Source: Candidatus Aphodocola excrementigallinarum (lineage in GTDB: Bacteria; Bacillota_I; Bacilli_A; RF39; UBA660). Taken from it: a DNA stretch of 47,347 bases. The position numbers and the translations under genes are program-made. The notes beneath the pieces were generated by a model. It saw only the letters and a list, made by a program, of their open reading frames with translations. It was not told the DNA's origin and made no database searches. Below, piece after piece: positions 901 through 29,049 of the stretch (positions are counted from its first letter, which is position 1; each line of letters starts with the position of its first letter). Where the stretch lies: contig DVMT01000053.1 of the NCBI GenBank assembly GCA_018714855.1, positions 1-47,347 of the forward strand, written 5' to 3'.

Positions 901-1485
901 ATGAAAAAAATATTTGTTATTTTCTTAGCAGTAGTCCTTTCTTTTGCTGGCATAAGCAGTATTAGTGCCTCAGATAAATTAATAAAGACTGAAACAAAAG
1001 ATAAGGTTATGTTTATTCAAGATAGAAACGGAGAGTTTTTGTATTCTTGGAGCTTTGATAAAAATGAATACAATAAAAGTGACTTGGAATTTGACATGAC
1101 AATCAAGTTTAAAAGTCCTAACAAAGATAAGATAAATAACTTGATTTCTAATAATGTTAAAAAGGAGTTTGTATCATTTAATTATCATGGCGATTTACCT
1201 GGAAAAGCAACCGTAAAGGTTCCAGTTAAAAACTTTGAAGATGGTCAAAGACTTAACTTATACTATTATAATGAGAGTGCAAATGAAATTGAAACAATTC
1301 AAAACAACATAATGGTTCAAAACGGTTACGCATCATTTGAAATAAATCATTGTTCTGATTACTTTTTAACGTTATCCGTTGTAAAAGAAGCATCCGGTGG
1401 CAATAATAATGGAGTTTTAATCATTGGTATGCTTGTTGTTATAGTTGGTCTTGTTGGTTATACAATATTCAAAAATAGAAAGTAG
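901..1485 (+). CDS. Secreted/membrane-anchored protein with signal peptide and C-terminal TM anchor
   Basis: MKKIFVIFLAVVLSFAGISSISA signal; C-terminal VLIIGMLVVIVGLVGYTIFKNRK; RBS AGGAGG. Confidence 0.7.
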   Translation: MKKIFVIFLAVVLSFAGISSISASDKLIKTETKDKVMFIQDRNGEFLYSWSFDKNEYNKSDLEFDMTIKFKSPNKDKINNLISNNVKKEFVSFNYHGDLPGKATVKVPVKNFEDGQRLNLYYYNESANEIETIQNNIMVQNGYASFEINHCSDYFLTLSVVKEASGGNNNGVLIIGMLVVIVGLVGYTIFKNRK

Positions 1486-1568
1486 ATGTTTATTTTCTAT
1501 TTTTTTAGATTGTAATATGTGTCTTATTTTGTTATAATTAACATTGATAATAGGGTTGGTGATAGACG

Positions 1569-1910
1569 GTGAAAAACGAAAAGGGCCAAGCATTAGTTGA
1601 ATTTATCATAATACTTCCAGTTACTTTAATACTTATGTTTTGTGTTATTGATTTTGCTAGGGTAATATCCTTAAGAAGTGATTTGGAAAGTATTACACAG
1701 GATGCAACGATTCTTTTAGAGTCGGGTAAAACAAAAGAAGACATTGAAAGAGAACTTGATTTAAATGGTGCTAATTTAAACATAGAAATAAAAGGTGAAT
1801 ACGTAGATGTTAAAACTTCTAAAGAAATAAAGCCTATTACTCCTGGTTTTTCATACATATTAAAAGATGTTTTTAACGTTGAGGTTAGCCGGGTGATAAG
1901 AAATGAGTAG
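1569..1910 (+). CDS. TadE-like pilus assembly protein
   Basis: GQALVEFIIILPVTLILMFCVIDFAR; GTG start; within Tad operon. Confidence 0.75.
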   Translation: MKNEKGQALVEFIIILPVTLILMFCVIDFARVISLRSDLESITQDATILLESGKTKEDIERELDLNGANLNIEIKGEYVDVKTSKEIKPITPGFSYILKDVFNVEVSRVIRNE

Positions 1911-2298
1911 GTTGGGTAGCAAAGGCCAGGCGCTTGCGATATTCGTTATTTTTGTTCCGGTTTTTATAATGGTAGGAGCGTTTGTCGTGGATTTATCATT
2001 TGCAAGGTATAATGCAAGAAAGCTAGATAACATAGCGGAAATTGTAACTTCTTACGGACTTGATCATTTAGCTGACGAACCTTATAACAACATGGTTGAT
2101 TTAATTTATCAAAACGATAGTGAAATAGATAGTTATACAATTAACATAAACGAAGAAGAAAGTAAAATAGAAGTTAGCATTACAAAGGCAACTAAAGGTT
2201 TTTTTGGAAGTATTATTGGAAAAGAAATATATAAAGAAAAAAGTGAATTTACTGGTTATATAAAAGATGATAAAAAAATAATAGAAAAGGGTGTTTAA
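1903..2298 (+). CDS. TadE/TadG-like (Flp pilus-associated) protein
   Basis: GSKGQALAIFVIFVPVFIMVGAFVVDLSFARYNARKLDN. Confidence 0.7.
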   Translation: MSRLGSKGQALAIFVIFVPVFIMVGAFVVDLSFARYNARKLDNIAEIVTSYGLDHLADEPYNNMVDLIYQNDSEIDSYTININEEESKIEVSITKATKGFFGSIIGKEIYKEKSEFTGYIKDDKKIIEKGV

Positions 2299-2300
2299 TT

Positions 2301-3095
2301 ATGAAAAGTGTTGCAGCAAAAGTAATAACTGTATTTTCTTGTAAAGGTGGTGCAGGTAAAACAACAACGACTTTAAATTTAGCAGGAATATATAGTTTAA
2401 TGGATAAAAAAGTACTTATTATGGATCTTGATTTAAATAGTGGAGGCGTTGCCGTTAGCTTAAACGTTAACAACGAAAAAACAATATATAACGTGGTTGA
2501 TGATATATCTAACAATCGTTTTGATGAGATTGATAATTACGTTTGTAAATATAACGATAAAATAGACGTTTTATCAGCACCTAAAGATCCTAGAAACGCG
2601 CTTAAAATAGATTCTAAATACATTAATTTAGTTATTTCATCAGCAATGTATAAATATGATGTTATTTTAATTGATTCTTCTCATTATATAACGCCTGTTT
2701 TGTTAATGGCTTTAGATAAGAGTGATAATACTTTGTTTTTGGTAACTAATGATCCGGTTGACTTAAAAAACGCAAGAAGCATGATTTCAATATTTAAAGA
2801 TACGGAAGTTAATAATTATAAAGTAGTGTTTAATTCATCTAAGGATACTGGTAAGGATTATTTTTCGCTTTTTGATATTAAAAACATTATAAAACATAAC
2901 ATTGATTATACAATAGATAAATCGTTTTACATAAAAGACATTGATAAATACGTAATTGATGGAGAAATATTAACTCTTAATAAAAAAATAAGGTCATCCA
3001 AGAAAGGTGATATCATGAAGCTTACTAAGCTTGCGAATGCACTACTTGAATCTAATCCAAAAAAAGTGGAGGTAAAAAAAGATGAAGAAAAGTAA
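2301..3095 (+). CDS. MinD/CpaE (TadZ)-like P-loop ATPase
   Basis: FSCKGGAGKTTTTLNLAGIYS deviant Walker A; operon context. Confidence 0.8.
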   Translation: MKSVAAKVITVFSCKGGAGKTTTTLNLAGIYSLMDKKVLIMDLDLNSGGVAVSLNVNNEKTIYNVVDDISNNRFDEIDNYVCKYNDKIDVLSAPKDPRNALKIDSKYINLVISSAMYKYDVILIDSSHYITPVLLMALDKSDNTLFLVTNDPVDLKNARSMISIFKDTEVNNYKVVFNSSKDTGKDYFSLFDIKNIIKHNIDYTIDKSFYIKDIDKYVIDGEILTLNKKIRSSKKGDIMKLTKLANALLESNPKKVEVKKDEEK

Positions 3096-4416
3096 TTTAT
3101 TAAATGCTTTTGATGTTAAAGAACAAAAAGTACAAACAAAGCCAGTTGCAGATTATGATATATTTAAAGATAAAGAACTTTTGGATAATTTAAGAAACAC
3201 CATTATTTCTAACTTAATAGATGATAAAATACCTAACGATAAGCTTCTTCATGAATATATTAATGACGAGATTGATAAAGCTCTTTTAGGTTATGATTTA
3301 ACTAACTTAGAGCGTAGTCATATCTTTAACTTAATTGATAATGAAATAAACGGTAATGGACCTATTACCGAGCTTTTAGAGGATCCTAACATTACGGAAA
3401 TCATGGTTAATGGTAAAAACGAAGTTTACGTTGAAATAGACGGACAAATAAGTAAGGATGATTCTGTATCATTTATAAATGATGAACACATCATAAGAAC
3501 CATTCAAAAAATAGTGCAGCCACTAGGTAGAACAATTGATACGGCAAATCCAATGGTAGATGCAAGATTGGAAGATGGCTCAAGATTAAACGCGGTAATT
3601 CCTCCTTTATCTTTAAAGGGACCGGTTGTTACAATAAGAAAGTTTAGACGTGATATGGAAACCGTTGATGATTTTTTAAGAACTGGTGCAATGACGCCTT
3701 ACATGGCACGTTTTTTAGACGCGGCCGTAAAAGCTAAATTAAACATCATCATATGCGGTGGTACTGGTGCAGGTAAAACAACGCTTTTAAACGCATTATC
3801 ATCTTTTATTGGTGATCACGAGCGTATCATAACAATTGAGGATGCGGCTGAGTTACGACTTCACCAATCACACGTAATAGGTTTGGAAACAAGACTTACT
3901 AACTATGAAGGAACAGGAGAGGTTACCATTCGTGATTTAGTTATTAACTCACTTCGTATGAGACCTGATAGAATAATCGTAGGTGAGGTTCGTGGTAAAG
4001 AAGCTTTTGATATGCTTCAAGCAATGAACACTGGTCATGATGGATCACTTACAACGATGCACGCAAATGGCCCTCTTGATGCTTTAAACAGACTTGAGAC
4101 GATGGTTTTAATGGCGGGTATGGAAATACCTGTCAAAGCAATTCGTGAATATATTGAAAACGCAATTGACTTAGTTGTCAACGTATCTCGTTTATCTGAT
4201 GGAAGAAGAAAAGTAACTAGTATTTGTGAGGTAGACGGATTTAATGATGATGTTATAAAACTAGAGGAAATATTTAGCTTTAAGCAAACAGGACTTACTG
4301 ATACTGGAGAAGTAGATGGCGCTTTTGATTTAAGAAAAAGAGTACCAATGGTTCTTAAAAAGATAAGAAGTAAAGGTATTACTGACTTAGATGATATATT
4401 TAATTTTAAAAAGTAA
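3082..4416 (+). CDS. tadA: CpaF/TadA-type secretion ATPase
   Basis: [19 protein letters not shown] Walker [41 protein letters not shown]. Confidence 0.95.
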
Positions 4417-24027: not shown

Positions 24028-24918
24028 ATGAGATCAGGATTCGTAAGTTTAATAGGAAGACCAAATACTGGTAAGTCAACTTTAATAAATGCTTTAGTAG
24101 GTTATAAAATCGCTATAACATCAAATAAAGCACAAACAACAAGAAATAACATACAAGGAATATATAATGATGAAGACGCTCAAATAGTATTTGTTGATAC
24201 ACCAGGTATTCATAAACCAAAGGATAAACTAGGACAAAGACTAAATGATGATGCTTATTTTTCAATAGATGATGTTGATATAATTTTATTTTTAATAGAT
24301 GTAACGATGCCTTTTGGTAAAGGAGATAACTTTGTTTTAGATAGAATTAAAGAAGCTAATAAACCAGTGTTTTTAATACTAAATAAGGTAGATAAAATAA
24401 ATAATGAAAAACTAATTGAATTAATTAATAAATATAAAGATTTATACGATTTTAAAGAAATAATTCCAATATCTGCTTTAAAAGAAAAGAATTTAAAAGA
24501 ACTAATTAAAACGTTAAAAGAATACTTACCAGATAAAGTGAAGTATTTTCCAGATTCTGATTTAACTAATACTACAAAAGAATTTAGAGTATCGGAATTA
24601 ATAAGAGAAAAAGTTTTAAGACTTACTCATGATGAAGTTCCTCATGCAATTACCTGCGTAGTTGAAAAATTTGATGAGAAAAAAGACAAAGCAATAATAA
24701 ATGCTACAATAATAGTTGAAAGAGATTCATTAAAAAGCATTATCATTGGGAAAAAAGGTTCAATGTTAAAGGAAATAGGAACAAAAGCAAGGCATGACAT
24801 AGAAGACATGCTTGGTAAAAAAGTATACTTAGAGTTATTTGTTAAAACAATTAAAAACTGGAGAGATAAAGAAAAGTATTTAAAAGAACTAGGTTTTTAT
24901 GATATAGATGAGGAGTAA
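24028..24918 (+). CDS. era: GTPase Era
   Basis: GRPNTGKSTLINAL, DTPGIHKPK, NKVD, C-terminal KH domain. Confidence 0.97.
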   Translation: MRSGFVSLIGRPNTGKSTLINALVGYKIAITSNKAQTTRNNIQGIYNDEDAQIVFVDTPGIHKPKDKLGQRLNDDAYFSIDDVDIILFLIDVTMPFGKGDNFVLDRIKEANKPVFLILNKVDKINNEKLIELINKYKDLYDFKEIIPISALKEKNLKELIKTLKEYLPDKVKYFPDSDLTNTTKEFRVSELIREKVLRLTHDEVPHAITCVVEKFDEKKDKAIINATIIVERDSLKSIIIGKKGSMLKEIGTKARHDIEDMLGKKVYLELFVKTIKNWRDKEKYLKELGFYDIDEE

Positions 24919-24922
24919 GAAT

Positions 24923-25564
24923 ATGACAGAAAGTATTAAAACGTTAATAGAATTAGGATATAGTAAAAAAGATGCGGAAGAAATAATAAAGGCGTATCCT
25001 TTAACTAATTTAAAAGATGAAACGTTAAAAGAAAATATAAAAACTAATTATAAATTGTTAATGAATTTAGGCTATACCAACGAAGAAGTAATAAAAATGA
25101 CAAAGATGTTTCCTGTATTATATAGTTATAGTGAAGATAACATAACAAATAAGATAAACTTTTTAATAAAGTTAGGTTACAGTAAAGAAGAAGTAATAAA
25201 AATGACAAAGGTACTTCCAGTACTGTATGGTTATAGTGAAGAAAACATAACAAATAGGATAGATTTTTTAATAAAGTTAGGTTATAGTAAAGAAGAAGTA
25301 ATAAAAATGACAAAAGCACTTCCCTCATTGTTTAGTTTAAGTGAAGGAAACATAACAAACAAGATAGAGTTTATGATAAGCTTTGGTTACACCAAAGAAG
25401 AAGTAATAAAAATGACAAAAACCCTTCATTCATTGTATAGCTTAAGTGAAGAAAACGTAACAAATAAAATAAACTTTTTAATGGGATTAGGATACAGTAA
25501 AGAAGACGTAATAAAAATGACAAAGACTCATCCTGCATTATATAGTTATAGTGAAGAAAACTAA
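24923..25564 (+). pseudogene. mTERF-like helical-repeat protein, copy 1, disrupted before its C-terminal domain
   Basis: One divergent and four full 35-aa repeats, then a truncated repeat ending LYSYSEEN*; copies 2 and 3 carry about 100 further residues. Confidence 0.75.
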
Positions 25565-25724
25565 AGCAAGATATAATTATTTAACGCAAGTTAGGTTAAT
25601 GGTTATAGATGAAAGTAGTTATAGGAGATTATTTATGGGTGAAAAAAGCTTTCAAAAAACATATGGAGTGTCAACTGATGCACTCATAAAAATATATGGT
25701 TTAGACCCTAAAATAAAAGATTAA
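25562..25724 (+). pseudogene. Out-of-frame remnant of the C-terminal domain of mTERF-like copy 1
   Basis: TKARYNYLTQVRLMVIDESSYRRLFMGEKSFQKTYGVSTDALIKIYGLDPKIKD*, homologous to C-termini of copies 2 and 3; +1 frame relative to the repeat ORF. Confidence 0.8.
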
Positions 25725-25743
25725 ATAAAAAGGAGATATAAAA

Positions 25744-26127
25744 ATGGTAGATTTTTTATTAGAACTAGGAATAGATGTAAAAGATATTAATAATATAATT
25801 GAAATGAATAAGAATTTAGTTGATTATGAAGATTATAAAAAGAACGTAGAAGTATTAAAAATGATTGGCTGTGATGATAAAGAAATAAGAAACATAATAA
25901 TAAGCAACCCAAATTTTATAATACGAAATAATGGAGATGTTGTAAAATTAATTAAAGTATTTAATAATTATAGTTTTACAGATTTAGATATGTTATTTGA
26001 TTCAAATCCATATTTATTAAACTTAGATGATTTTGAATTAATAGATTTTTTTGATAAGAAAGAAAAAGAAGGTTTAAGTAAACAAGAAATAATAGATTTA
26101 GTAGAAACAGAATTTGATGTAATATAA
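25744..26127 (+). CDS. Small (127 aa) divergent mTERF-like repeat protein
   Basis: Periodic pattern MIGCDDKEIRNIIISNPNFIIRNNGDVVKLIKVF / NYSFTDLDMLFDSNPYLLNLDDFELIDFF; RBS AAGGAGAT. Confidence 0.6.
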   Translation: MVDFLLELGIDVKDINNIIEMNKNLVDYEDYKKNVEVLKMIGCDDKEIRNIIISNPNFIIRNNGDVVKLIKVFNNYSFTDLDMLFDSNPYLLNLDDFELIDFFDKKEKEGLSKQEIIDLVETEFDVI

Positions 26128-26140
26128 TAGGGTGATATTA

Positions 26141-27034
26141 ATGAAAGAAAGTATAAAAACGCTGATAGAATTAGGTTATAGTAAATCTGATGCAGAAGAA
26201 ATAGTAAATTCATATCCTTTAAATGGTTTTAAAGATGAAACGTTAAAAGAAAACATAAAAAGAAATTATAAATTATTAATAAGCTTAGGTTACACCAAAA
26301 ATGAAGTAATAAAAATGACAAAGACACTTCCTGCGTTGTATAGTTTAAGTGAAGAAAACATAACAAACAAAATAAATTTTTTAATAAGCTTAGGTTATAC
26401 TAAAGAAGGAGTGTTAAAAATGGTAAAATCACTTCCTCAATTGTATGGTTTAAGTGAAGAGGCCATAACAAATAAAATAAACTTTTTAATAGGATTAGGA
26501 TGCACTAAAGCCGAAGTAATAAAGATGACAAAGACGCTTCCTACGTTATATGGTTATAGTGAAGAAAACATAACAAAAAAAATAGAGTTTTTAGTAAACT
26601 TAGGTTATAATAAAAAAGAAGTAATAAAGATGACAAAGATGCTTCCTGCATTATATAGTTATAGTGAAGATAACATAACAAATAAAATAGACTTTTTAAT
26701 AGATTTAGGTTATAGTAAACAAGAAGTGTTAAAGATGACTATTAATTTTCCTGCTTTATATAGTTTTAGTGAAGAAAATATTATTGAAAAAATAGAGTAT
26801 TATAGAAAGAAAAATTTGGATTTTATTATAATAGAAAATACAAAGTATTTAATGCAAAGTATGAAGAAAACTAAGGCTAGATATAATTATTTAACAGAAG
26901 AAAAAATGTTTAGCTTAGATGAAAGTAACTATAGTAGATTATTTATGAGTGAAAAAAGATTTCAAAAAACATATGGAGTGTCAACTGATGCACTTATAAG
27001 AATGTATGGATTAAATCCACAAATAATAGATTAG
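26141..27034 (+). CDS. mTERF-like helical-repeat protein, copy 2
   Basis: N-terminal divergent unit plus five 35-aa units (LGYTKNEVIKMTKTLPALYSLSEENITNKINFLI...) and C-terminal RYNYL...KTYGVSTDALIRMYGL domain. Confidence 0.85.
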   Translation: MKESIKTLIELGYSKSDAEEIVNSYPLNGFKDETLKENIKRNYKLLISLGYTKNEVIKMTKTLPALYSLSEENITNKINFLISLGYTKEGVLKMVKSLPQLYGLSEEAITNKINFLIGLGCTKAEVIKMTKTLPTLYGYSEENITKKIEFLVNLGYNKKEVIKMTKMLPALYSYSEDNITNKIDFLIDLGYSKQEVLKMTINFPALYSFSEENIIEKIEYYRKKNLDFIIIENTKYLMQSMKKTKARYNYLTEEKMFSLDESNYSRLFMSEKRFQKTYGVSTDALIRMYGLNPQIID

Positions 27035-27110
27035 ATAAAAAGAAAAAGAGGGTTTAAGTAAACAAGAAATAATAGATTTAGTAGAAACAGAATTTGATGT
27101 AATATAATAG
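27035..27110 (+). pseudogene. Relic of the 3' end of the 127-aa ORF, carried by tandem duplication
   Basis: 27041-27110 repeats 26061-26130 almost exactly, including GTAGAAACAGAATTTGATGTAATATAATAGGGTGAT. Confidence 0.85.
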
Positions 27111-27120
27111 GGTGATATTA

Positions 27121-28026
27121 ATGAAAGAAAGTATAAAAACGCTAATAGAATTAGGTTATAGTAAATCTGATGAAGAAGAAATAGTAAATTCATATGCTTT
27201 AAATACTTTAAAAGATGAAACATTAAAAGAAAATATAAAAGCAAATTATAAATTATTAATAGACTTAGGTTATACCAAAGAAGAAGTAATAAAAATTACA
27301 AAAATGCTTCCTGCATTGTATAGTTATACTGAAGAGAACATAACAAAAAAGATAGATTTTTTAATAAGTTTAGGTTATAGTAAAGAAGAAATAATAAAAA
27401 TGACAAAAACACTTCCTCAATTGTATGGTTATAGTGAGAAAAAAATAATTGATAAAATAAGCTTTTTGATAAATTTAGGTTATAGTAAGAAAGAGATATT
27501 AAAAATAACAAAGACCTTTCCAACATTGTATGGTTTAAGCAAAGAAAACATAACAGATAAAATAGATTTTTTAATAAGCATTGGTTACACAAAGGAAGAA
27601 GTGTTAGAAATGACAAATATTCTTCCAACACTTTATAACTATAGTGAAGATAATATAAAGGATAAAATAAACTTTTTAATAGATTTGGGTTATAGTAAAC
27701 AAGAAGTGTTAAAGATGACTATTAATTTTCCTGCTTTATATAGTTTTAGTGAAGAAAATATTATTGAAAAAATAGAGTATTATAGAATGAAAAATTTGGA
27801 TTTTATTATAATAGAAAATACAAAGTATTTAATGCAAAGTATGAAGAAAACTAAGGCTAGATATAATTATTTAACAGAAGAAAAAATGTTTAGCTTAGAT
27901 GAAAGTAATTATAGTAAATTATTTATGAGTGAAAAAAATTTTCAAAAAACATATGGAGTGTCAACTGATGCACTTATAAAATTGCATGGATTGGATTCTC
28001 AAATAAAAAGATGTATAAAAAAATAA
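27121..28026 (+). CDS. mTERF-like helical-repeat protein, copy 3
   Basis: Same architecture as copy 2; five 35-aa units and C-terminal KTYGVSTDALIKLHGL. Confidence 0.85.
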   Translation: MKESIKTLIELGYSKSDEEEIVNSYALNTLKDETLKENIKANYKLLIDLGYTKEEVIKITKMLPALYSYTEENITKKIDFLISLGYSKEEIIKMTKTLPQLYGYSEKKIIDKISFLINLGYSKKEILKITKTFPTLYGLSKENITDKIDFLISIGYTKEEVLEMTNILPTLYNYSEDNIKDKINFLIDLGYSKQEVLKMTINFPALYSFSEENIIEKIEYYRMKNLDFIIIENTKYLMQSMKKTKARYNYLTEEKMFSLDESNYSKLFMSEKNFQKTYGVSTDALIKLHGLDSQIKRCIKK

Positions 28027-28062
28027 ATTTATCACCAATATATAAATAGAAGGTGATTAAAA

Positions 28063-28179
28063 ATGAATATAAATGACGTTTGGCATTTATTTGAAAAAAC
28101 AGGAAAGATAGAATATTATATGAAATACAGAAAAATGAAAGAAGGGAAGATTGATACCCTTGGAAGTGATAGAAGTTGA
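28063..28179 (+). CDS. YqzL-like small protein
   Basis: MNINDVWHLFEKTGKIEYYMKYRKMKEGKIDT; RBS AAGGTGAT; immediately upstream of recO as in B. subtilis. Confidence 0.6.
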   Translation: MNINDVWHLFEKTGKIEYYMKYRKMKEGKIDTLGSDRS

Positions 28180-28891
28180 AGGCGTTGTAATTGATGAGAA
28201 ATCTTTTAGTGAAACAAGCAAGATACTTAACATAATTACAAAGGAAAAAGGTGTAATAGGAGTACTTGCTAAAGGTGCTAAAAGACTAAAAAGTCCGTTA
28301 AGAAGCGTAAGCGAAAGATTTTCTTATGCTAAGTTTAACATTAGCTATAAAGAAAATAAGTTATCTACTTTAATTAGTGCGGATATTATTAACTCGTTAT
28401 TTAATATAAAAAAAGATATAGAAAAAGTATCTTATTTAAATTACATATCTGAACTTACTAACCTTGTGTTAAAACAAAATAATGATAAAAGAATATATGA
28501 TATTTTTATAAGTGCTATTTTAAAAATTGAAGAAAACTTTGATCCAATGCTAATAACTAATATTTTAGAAATAAAATACTTATCTTTTTTAGGCGTTGCT
28601 CCAAAATTGGATGGATGCGTTGTCTGTGGTAAAAAAGAAGTTGTAACTATATCTAGTTATAAAGGCGGGTTTGTATGTAAAAATCACGTTGATGGTGAAT
28701 ACATTGTAAGTGATAAAACGATTAAGTTAATTAGGGTATTAGAGTATGTTGATATATCTAAAATAACCAAGTTAGATGTTTCAAGCAAGGTAAAAAAAGA
28801 AATAAATGATTTTATAGATGATTATTATGATAGATATACAGGTCTTTATTTAAAAAGTAAGAAATTTTTAAAAAATCTTGTAAATTTATAA
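28151..28891 (+). CDS. recO: DNA repair protein RecO
   Basis: EGVVIDEKSFSETSKILNIITKEKGVIGVLAKGAKRLKSPLRSVSERFSYAKF; CVVCGK...CKNH; TTG start. Confidence 0.93.
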   Translation: MIPLEVIEVEGVVIDEKSFSETSKILNIITKEKGVIGVLAKGAKRLKSPLRSVSERFSYAKFNISYKENKLSTLISADIINSLFNIKKDIEKVSYLNYISELTNLVLKQNNDKRIYDIFISAILKIEENFDPMLITNILEIKYLSFLGVAPKLDGCVVCGKKEVVTISSYKGGFVCKNHVDGEYIVSDKTIKLIRVLEYVDISKITKLDVSSKVKKEINDFIDDYYDRYTGLYLKSKKFLKNLVNL

Positions 28892-28907
28892 ATTAATTGA
28901 AATTTTA

Positions 28908-28916
28908 TGTTATAAT
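28908..28916 (+). promoter_or_regulatory. Extended -10 promoter for T-box leader
   Basis: TGTTATAAT (TGnTATAAT). Confidence 0.5.
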
Positions 28917-28930
28917 ATTTGTAATAAATG

Positions 28931-29049
28931 TGCGATGACGGGCTTGGAAACCTATCAGCAGTATAAATGAAGCGATTTCTTCTAGAAATAAAAAGGGTGG
29001 AACCGTGGGAATTATTCTCACCCCTTACGTTTTCTAGAAGTTTTGTTTT
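28931..29049 (+). promoter_or_regulatory. T-box riboswitch (short form)
   Basis: AGGGTGGAACCGTGGG...CTCACCCCTT antiterminator/T-box; 10-bp arms CTTCTAGAAA/TTTCTAGAAG followed by TTTTGTTTT; upstream of an operon containing glyS. Confidence 0.85.

Follow-up and report, generated by a model that had tools for sequence, protein, structure and literature searches.

A cluster of mTERF-like pTERF genes inserted between era and recO in a Bacillota genome and the recurrence of its relatives in translation operons

Background

The mTERF proteins control gene expression in mitochondria and chloroplasts and were long regarded as eukaryotic. A bacterial family with similar repeats, the pTERFs, was named by Hu et al. 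2024 from Bacillota proteins, with the native role left open (PMC11417379). Members contain 3–11 repeat units, and two of them, pTERF1 and pTERF2, bind dsDNA sequence-specifically at nanomolar affinity; pTERF1, which derives from a ruminant-gut Clostridia genome, binds ACTNNNAGTC with a Kd of 1.87 nM, and pTERF2 binds a different motif (PMC11417379). The main text of that study does not mention operons, T-boxes, tRNA or a companion gene (PMC11417379).

Here we describe a gene cluster in a 47,347-nt stretch of a Candidatus Aphodocola excrementigallinarum contig (assembly GCA_018714855.1, DVMT01000053.1, positions 1–47,347; the whole stretch analysed is referred to as the window). Like the pTERFs, the cluster proteins come from a Bacillota metagenome genome, consist of tandem three-helix mTERF-like repeats and have an MTERF1-like predicted fold. 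Because of this shared definition, fold and source phylum we assign them to the pTERF family, the comparison with pTERF1 being one of descriptions only. The contig also bears era, recO, glyS and other bacterial genes. pTERF1 comes from Clostridia, and relatives of the cluster genes are likewise found in genomes titled Clostridia.

Human MTERF1 (PDB 3MVA) shares with the cluster proteins the fold, an alignment over the full length including the C-terminal part, and the positions of the base-flipping residues. However, MTERF1 is an organelle protein with diverged repeats, whereas the bacterial repeats are near-identical, and its base-flipping residues are not conserved in them but coincide with hypervariable positions. 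MTERF4–NSUN4 and mS93 of mitochondrial ribosomes belong to the same fold class, but their partners are RNA and the ribosome, and no NSUN4-like gene was recognised beside the bacterial genes.

Results and discussion

Organization of the cluster

All features described here lie on the plus strand. The left host gene, era (24028..24918), is an ORF with 74–96% identity to era in 16 same-genus genomes. It is followed by the truncated mTERF/pTERF gene 1 (24923..25564; PF02536 E = 8.5e-40), whose Shine–Dalgarno-like GAGGAG overlaps the 3' end of era and which encodes a cap and five 35-aa repeats, the fifth cut short, with a frameshift after it. A remnant of its C-terminal domain persists out of frame at 25551..25724 (direct repeat family D5), 69% identical to residues 240–297 of gene 2. 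Next come a 127-aa companion gene of mTERF fold (25744..26127; PF02536 E = 4.4e-9) and the intact, 297-aa gene 2 (26141..27034, with an alternative GTG start at 26132; PF02536 E = 1.7e-44), composed of an N-terminal cap, five 35-aa repeats and a C-terminal domain with the motif LMQS..K.ARYNYL. The segment 27038..27120 is a second copy of the companion gene's 3' tail (repeat D4) and marks the junction of a 980-bp tandem duplication, after which stands the intact, 301-aa gene 3 (27121..28026; PF02536 E = 1.8e-39). The right host genes are yqzL (28063..28179; PF14006 E = 0.0013, under the cut-off of that family) and the recO ORF (28151..28891), both syntenic in relatives. Upstream of era are ybeY and two dgkA-like genes, assigned by eye from the ORFs, rather than cdd, which the preliminary description names as the usual gene there in Bacilli.

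That description had reported three homologous ORFs built of 35-aa units with a shared C-terminal domain. The units are borne out by repeat family D1, whose 15 in-register copies, spaced 105 nt apart, are at least 60% identical, far above chance, and the C-terminal domain is intact in genes 2 and 3; the first ORF is nevertheless broken, with its C-terminal copy out of frame, and the fourth ORF, the companion, had been missed.

The frameshift in gene 1 is explained by a 92-bp deletion between copies of TGAAGAAAA, because genes 2 and 3 have two such copies 92 bp apart and gene 1 keeps a single copy at that place. A programmed frameshift was ruled out, as the deletion suffices and the paralogues still conserve the segment lost from gene 1. 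The two D4 copies (26059–26358 and 27039–27338) are 92% identical, and gene 3 is the product of the 980-bp tandem duplication, which included the tail of the 127-aa gene. Genes 3 and 2 have 79% amino acid identity and a dN/dS of about 0.40. Overall, dN/dS is 0.24–0.46, compared with 0.04 for pheS, which shows purifying selection and indicates that the proteins are functional yet fast-evolving.

Two further elements flank the cluster. An ATCACC/GGTGAT inverted repeat spans the yqzL ribosome-binding site (28031..28057) and is also present in several relatives with an empty site, being kept at the same-genus loci L094 and L096–L099; since its left arm resembles the 16S anti-Shine–Dalgarno sequence, it may gate translation of yqzL-recO. 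A weak T-box leader (28888..29028; RF00230 E = 6.6e-9, under the gathering score) precedes the glyS operon, with the core GGTGGAACCGTG at 28996 and two unknown genes and then glyS downstream. It was missed by two Rfam scans of the window and returned by a whole-genome search.

Identification as mTERF proteins

PF02536, the Pfam mTERF family, is the top match for every ORF of the cluster (E between 1e-9 and 1e-44). The three long genes score 136–152 bits and the companion scores 36 bits, the gathering cut-off being 23.1. Gene 2 alone aligns with human MTERF1 over residues 8–275 (E = 1.7e-11), and a profile built from 33 bacterial sequences matches it at E = 2.9e-23, in an alignment that also covers the C-terminal part. 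Designed, de novo 35-aa toroids also match the bacterial profile (E = 2.9e-11), so repeat composition inflates the scores and the E-values of such proteins call for caution; the case for mTERF is made by MTERF1 standing 12 orders of magnitude above the toroids, by the C-terminal alignment and by the fold. The AlphaFold model of gene 2 (pLDDT 94.7) has three helices per repeat, of about 10, 5 and 13 residues, and forms the superhelical solenoid characteristic of mTERFs, matching MTERF1 with E = 1.6e-9 and TMq 0.62. In a fold search against the PDB, all 17 matches with E ≤ 0.001 were mTERFs, with MTERF1–DNA complexes on top. The resemblance to mTERF proposed in the preliminary description, which would have given way to any unrelated repeat class, is thus upheld by profile, end-to-end alignment and predicted structure, and the cluster proteins can be securely regarded as bacterial mTERF proteins.

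The mTERF motif has been described as a Pro at position 8 and hydrophobic residues at 11, 18 and 25 (PMC11417379). In 268 bacterial repeats, Pro occupies position 17 in 80%, with Y/F/L at 20, I/L/M at 27 and L/M/I/Y at 34. The cluster repeats retain the classical motif of a Pro and three hydrophobic heptad positions and have clear sequence similarity to MTERF1, whereas pTERF1 has neither (PMC11417379).

Other repeat classes were considered. Matches to RuvA_C, UBA and DUF families were weak and short, confined to the LGYS.EE motif within the repeats. TAL effectors and TALE-likes provide a working analogy, having tandem 33–35-aa DNA-reading repeats with hypervariable positions, but their repeats have two helices rather than three, the fold match is weak (E = 0.008, under all confident mTERF matches) and PDB searches gave no sequence match; membership in that class was rejected.

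The companion gene

The companion model has a pLDDT of 91.4. Its best fold match is again MTERF1, with TMq 0.82 but an E-value of only 0.014, and the profile search gives E = 7.9e-12. The protein is acidic (pI 4.2) and conserved in a 13-row alignment (A3), and a long gene is paired with a companion-sized gene in 27 of 75 non-independent clusters. A conserved mTERF-fold companion of about 127 aa thus accompanies pTERF genes.

Two other protein types were observed. In most of the Clostridia loci a family of about 147 aa (EYANAYSEVLEILKYI...), with no Pfam match, adjoins the mTERF genes (L188:8393-8833, L198:6303-6749, L185:2583-3026, L191:10038-10481 and others) and may be a third component of the module. 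In a genome of the same genus as the window, locus L079 (G001:C16, about 1378–3573) contains a 1147-aa frame with short helical repeats (NLLKEKNLLDLLKDCPTILAEGKSKEIE) and a weak mTERF match, perhaps a divergent mTERF relative.

Distribution and history of the era-recO site

Of the 16 same-genus genomes with a readable interval, 15 have an era–yqzL gap of 43–110 bp and the other one has a gap of 241 bp; none contains an intact mTERF cluster at era-yqzL-recO. The 241-bp gap, in a genome with 87% Era identity, holds a decayed mTERF remnant with matching start and end; in nearer relatives, with 96% and 92% Era identity, the site is empty. The short gaps and the one decayed remnant justify the term "inserted", and the earlier view of a bacterial family lodged in a conserved operon agrees with the era and yqzL-recO flanks. 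Either an old gene has been lost several times or there were two insertions.

Of 385 genomes sampled from the order, 52 gave a PF02536 match, 40 of them above the cut-off; 14 control genomes gave none. In samples of the class (395 genomes) and the phylum (392 genomes) the matches were confined to the family of the window. Relatives exist in genomes titled Clostridia, in 13 of 145 genomes of one such family, and a named-genome search with a narrower alignment returned 12 loci. Presence within three genera is patchy (3/17, 24/44 and 3/35), and a locus adjoining nusB is stable across many genomes of one genus. Because of this patchiness and the absence from the closest relatives, the cluster is not essential for era-recO.

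These could be mobile or self-serving accessory genes that settle where an operon is co-directional and well expressed, with rapid turnover and no regulatory effect on the host. The patchy counts in the order and the three genera are what such genes would leave behind, as are the same-site decay in one relative, the broken gene 1 and the tandem duplication. We nevertheless consider the idea improbable, as the inserted interval at era-yqzL holds no transposase or integrase ORF, dN/dS is well under 1 and the nusB-adjoining locus persists in many genomes.

Translation operons as the genomic setting

In the 75 non-independent clusters, the neighbouring genes are co-directional in 57 of 64 cases upstream and 59 of 66 downstream. 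When 39 distinct, hand-curated contexts were considered, aminoacyl-tRNA synthetase genes (glyS, pheS, proS, hisS, asnS and, twice, thrS) made up 7 of 67 immediate flanks compared to about 1.3 expected, with P about 4e-4 in this post hoc test. With the count restricted to the roughly 27 core-gene flanks, and with 350 core genes assumed to include 22 synthetases, the likewise post hoc P is about 1e-3. Further neighbours include nusB-xseAB, rnhC, rplT, rpsF, rpsU, rnpA, prfB, a CCA-adding enzyme and ybeY; the synthetases and other neighbours were checked with NCBIfam. Many pTERF contexts are without any translation link, and tRNA genes are not consistently found as neighbours. At L077:7849-9621 the thrS upstream of the mTERF gene is split into two ORFs (N- and C-terminal parts), by a frameshift or an assembly error. 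At L200 (6932–8360) an mTERF pair is flanked by a dnaA-like gene and rnpA, which probably places it in the region of the replication origin.

This setting could also mean that the proteins act mainly on RNA, as factors for assembly or maturation that bind rRNA, tRNA or leader RNA. MTERF4–NSUN4 acts so in the mitochondrial ribosome, and some plant mTERFs have been proposed to do likewise. The neighbours era, ybeY, nusB, rplT, rpsF, rpsU, rnpA, the CCA-adding enzyme and several tRNA synthetases would suit such a role, and the mitoribosome-bound MTERF4 and mS93 are among the fold matches. A primary action on RNA seems unlikely to us, however, given that the best structural match is the DNA-binding MTERF1, that so patchy an occurrence does not fit a housekeeping function on RNA, and that two bacterial relatives bind specific dsDNA (PMC11417379).

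Several pTERF genes lie inside T-box operons. Seven loci of the pheST type have a conserved leader that bears the T-box core GGTGGTACCGCGG and is followed by mTERF genes and then pheS; Infernal found T-box matches in four of these genomes. Three genomes have a T-box leader ahead of mTERF genes in a context that appears to run on into hisS, with a contig break in between. One genome has, on a single contig, a T-box, asnB (identified by eye), a companion gene, an mTERF gene and asnS. The mTERF genes stand between T-box leader and synthetase in Phe, Asn and, apparently, His operons. With 6–13 T-boxes per genome, three such contexts exceed expectation (Poisson P about 0.002–0.012, post hoc). In the glyS context the mTERF gene precedes the T-box and so lies outside the T-box unit, and for one Clostridia thrS a T-box-like leader lies between the two genes. 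The notion that mTERFs replace lost T-boxes was ruled out, as the T-boxes are still present. Recurrence within translation operons of Bacilli and Clostridia, including operons induced by amino-acid shortage, appears to be unreported.

DNA reading and possible function

By entropy, the most variable position of the 268 repeats is 15 (3.69 bits), followed by 35 (3.40) and 18 (3.30); among the cluster paralogues, positions 1 and 15 differ most. In the profile alignment, repeat positions 15 and 18 fall on R162 and F243 of MTERF1, DNA-distorting residues that stabilise flipped bases; substitutions of both are represented among the crystal structures on DNA in the fold-search entries. This coincidence suggests that the variable residues face nucleic acid. 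To judge from their fold and from the characterized family members, the cluster proteins probably bind DNA. Control of transcription, one of the roles initially proposed, is plausible.

Variable DNA readers might instead recognise invading DNA, another role put forward at the outset. The hypervariable positions, the expansion and the loss do resemble arms-race genes. PADLOC gave no match, though, PHROG matches were only weak and short, and no known defence neighbours or effector domain were recognised. No relative turned up when viral contigs were scanned by pattern, so the genes have not been seen on phages. An anti-phage function is accordingly very hard to credit.

The best overall explanation, to which we assign a probability of about 0.6, is that pTERF genes have expanded locally to form the cluster and encode site-specific DNA-binding local regulators. 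Each intact protein would wrap DNA and read its site via the hypervariable repeat positions 15 and 18, and could act as a roadblock, terminator or repressor of its own translation-apparatus operon or of related genes. In the Phe, His and Asn operons, uncharged tRNA sensed by the T-box would trigger production of the pTERF; at era-recO, production would rely on readthrough and translational coupling from era. That pTERFs serve as local regulators of translation operons we put forward tentatively. Each pTERF is expected to have its own DNA motif; in the Clostridia loci, the published pTERF1 motif occurs near pTERF genes 8 times compared to 8.2 expected, and no operator was identified.

Conclusions

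Because they provide many near-identical tandem repeats with hypervariable positions, bacterial pTERFs could allow the repeat-to-base code to be worked out. Their recurrence in translation and T-box operons is a concrete lead to a natural function and to operons worth testing. We also speculate, as something of a long shot, that pTERFs add a protein level to the control of tRNA charging. As repeat-coded DNA readers expressed from T-box operons in amino-acid shortage, they would bind selected sites and so tune synthetase, ribosome or rRNA operons, with the companion as partner or inhibitor. If that were true, bacteria would have a starvation circuit based on a fold that is otherwise organellar.
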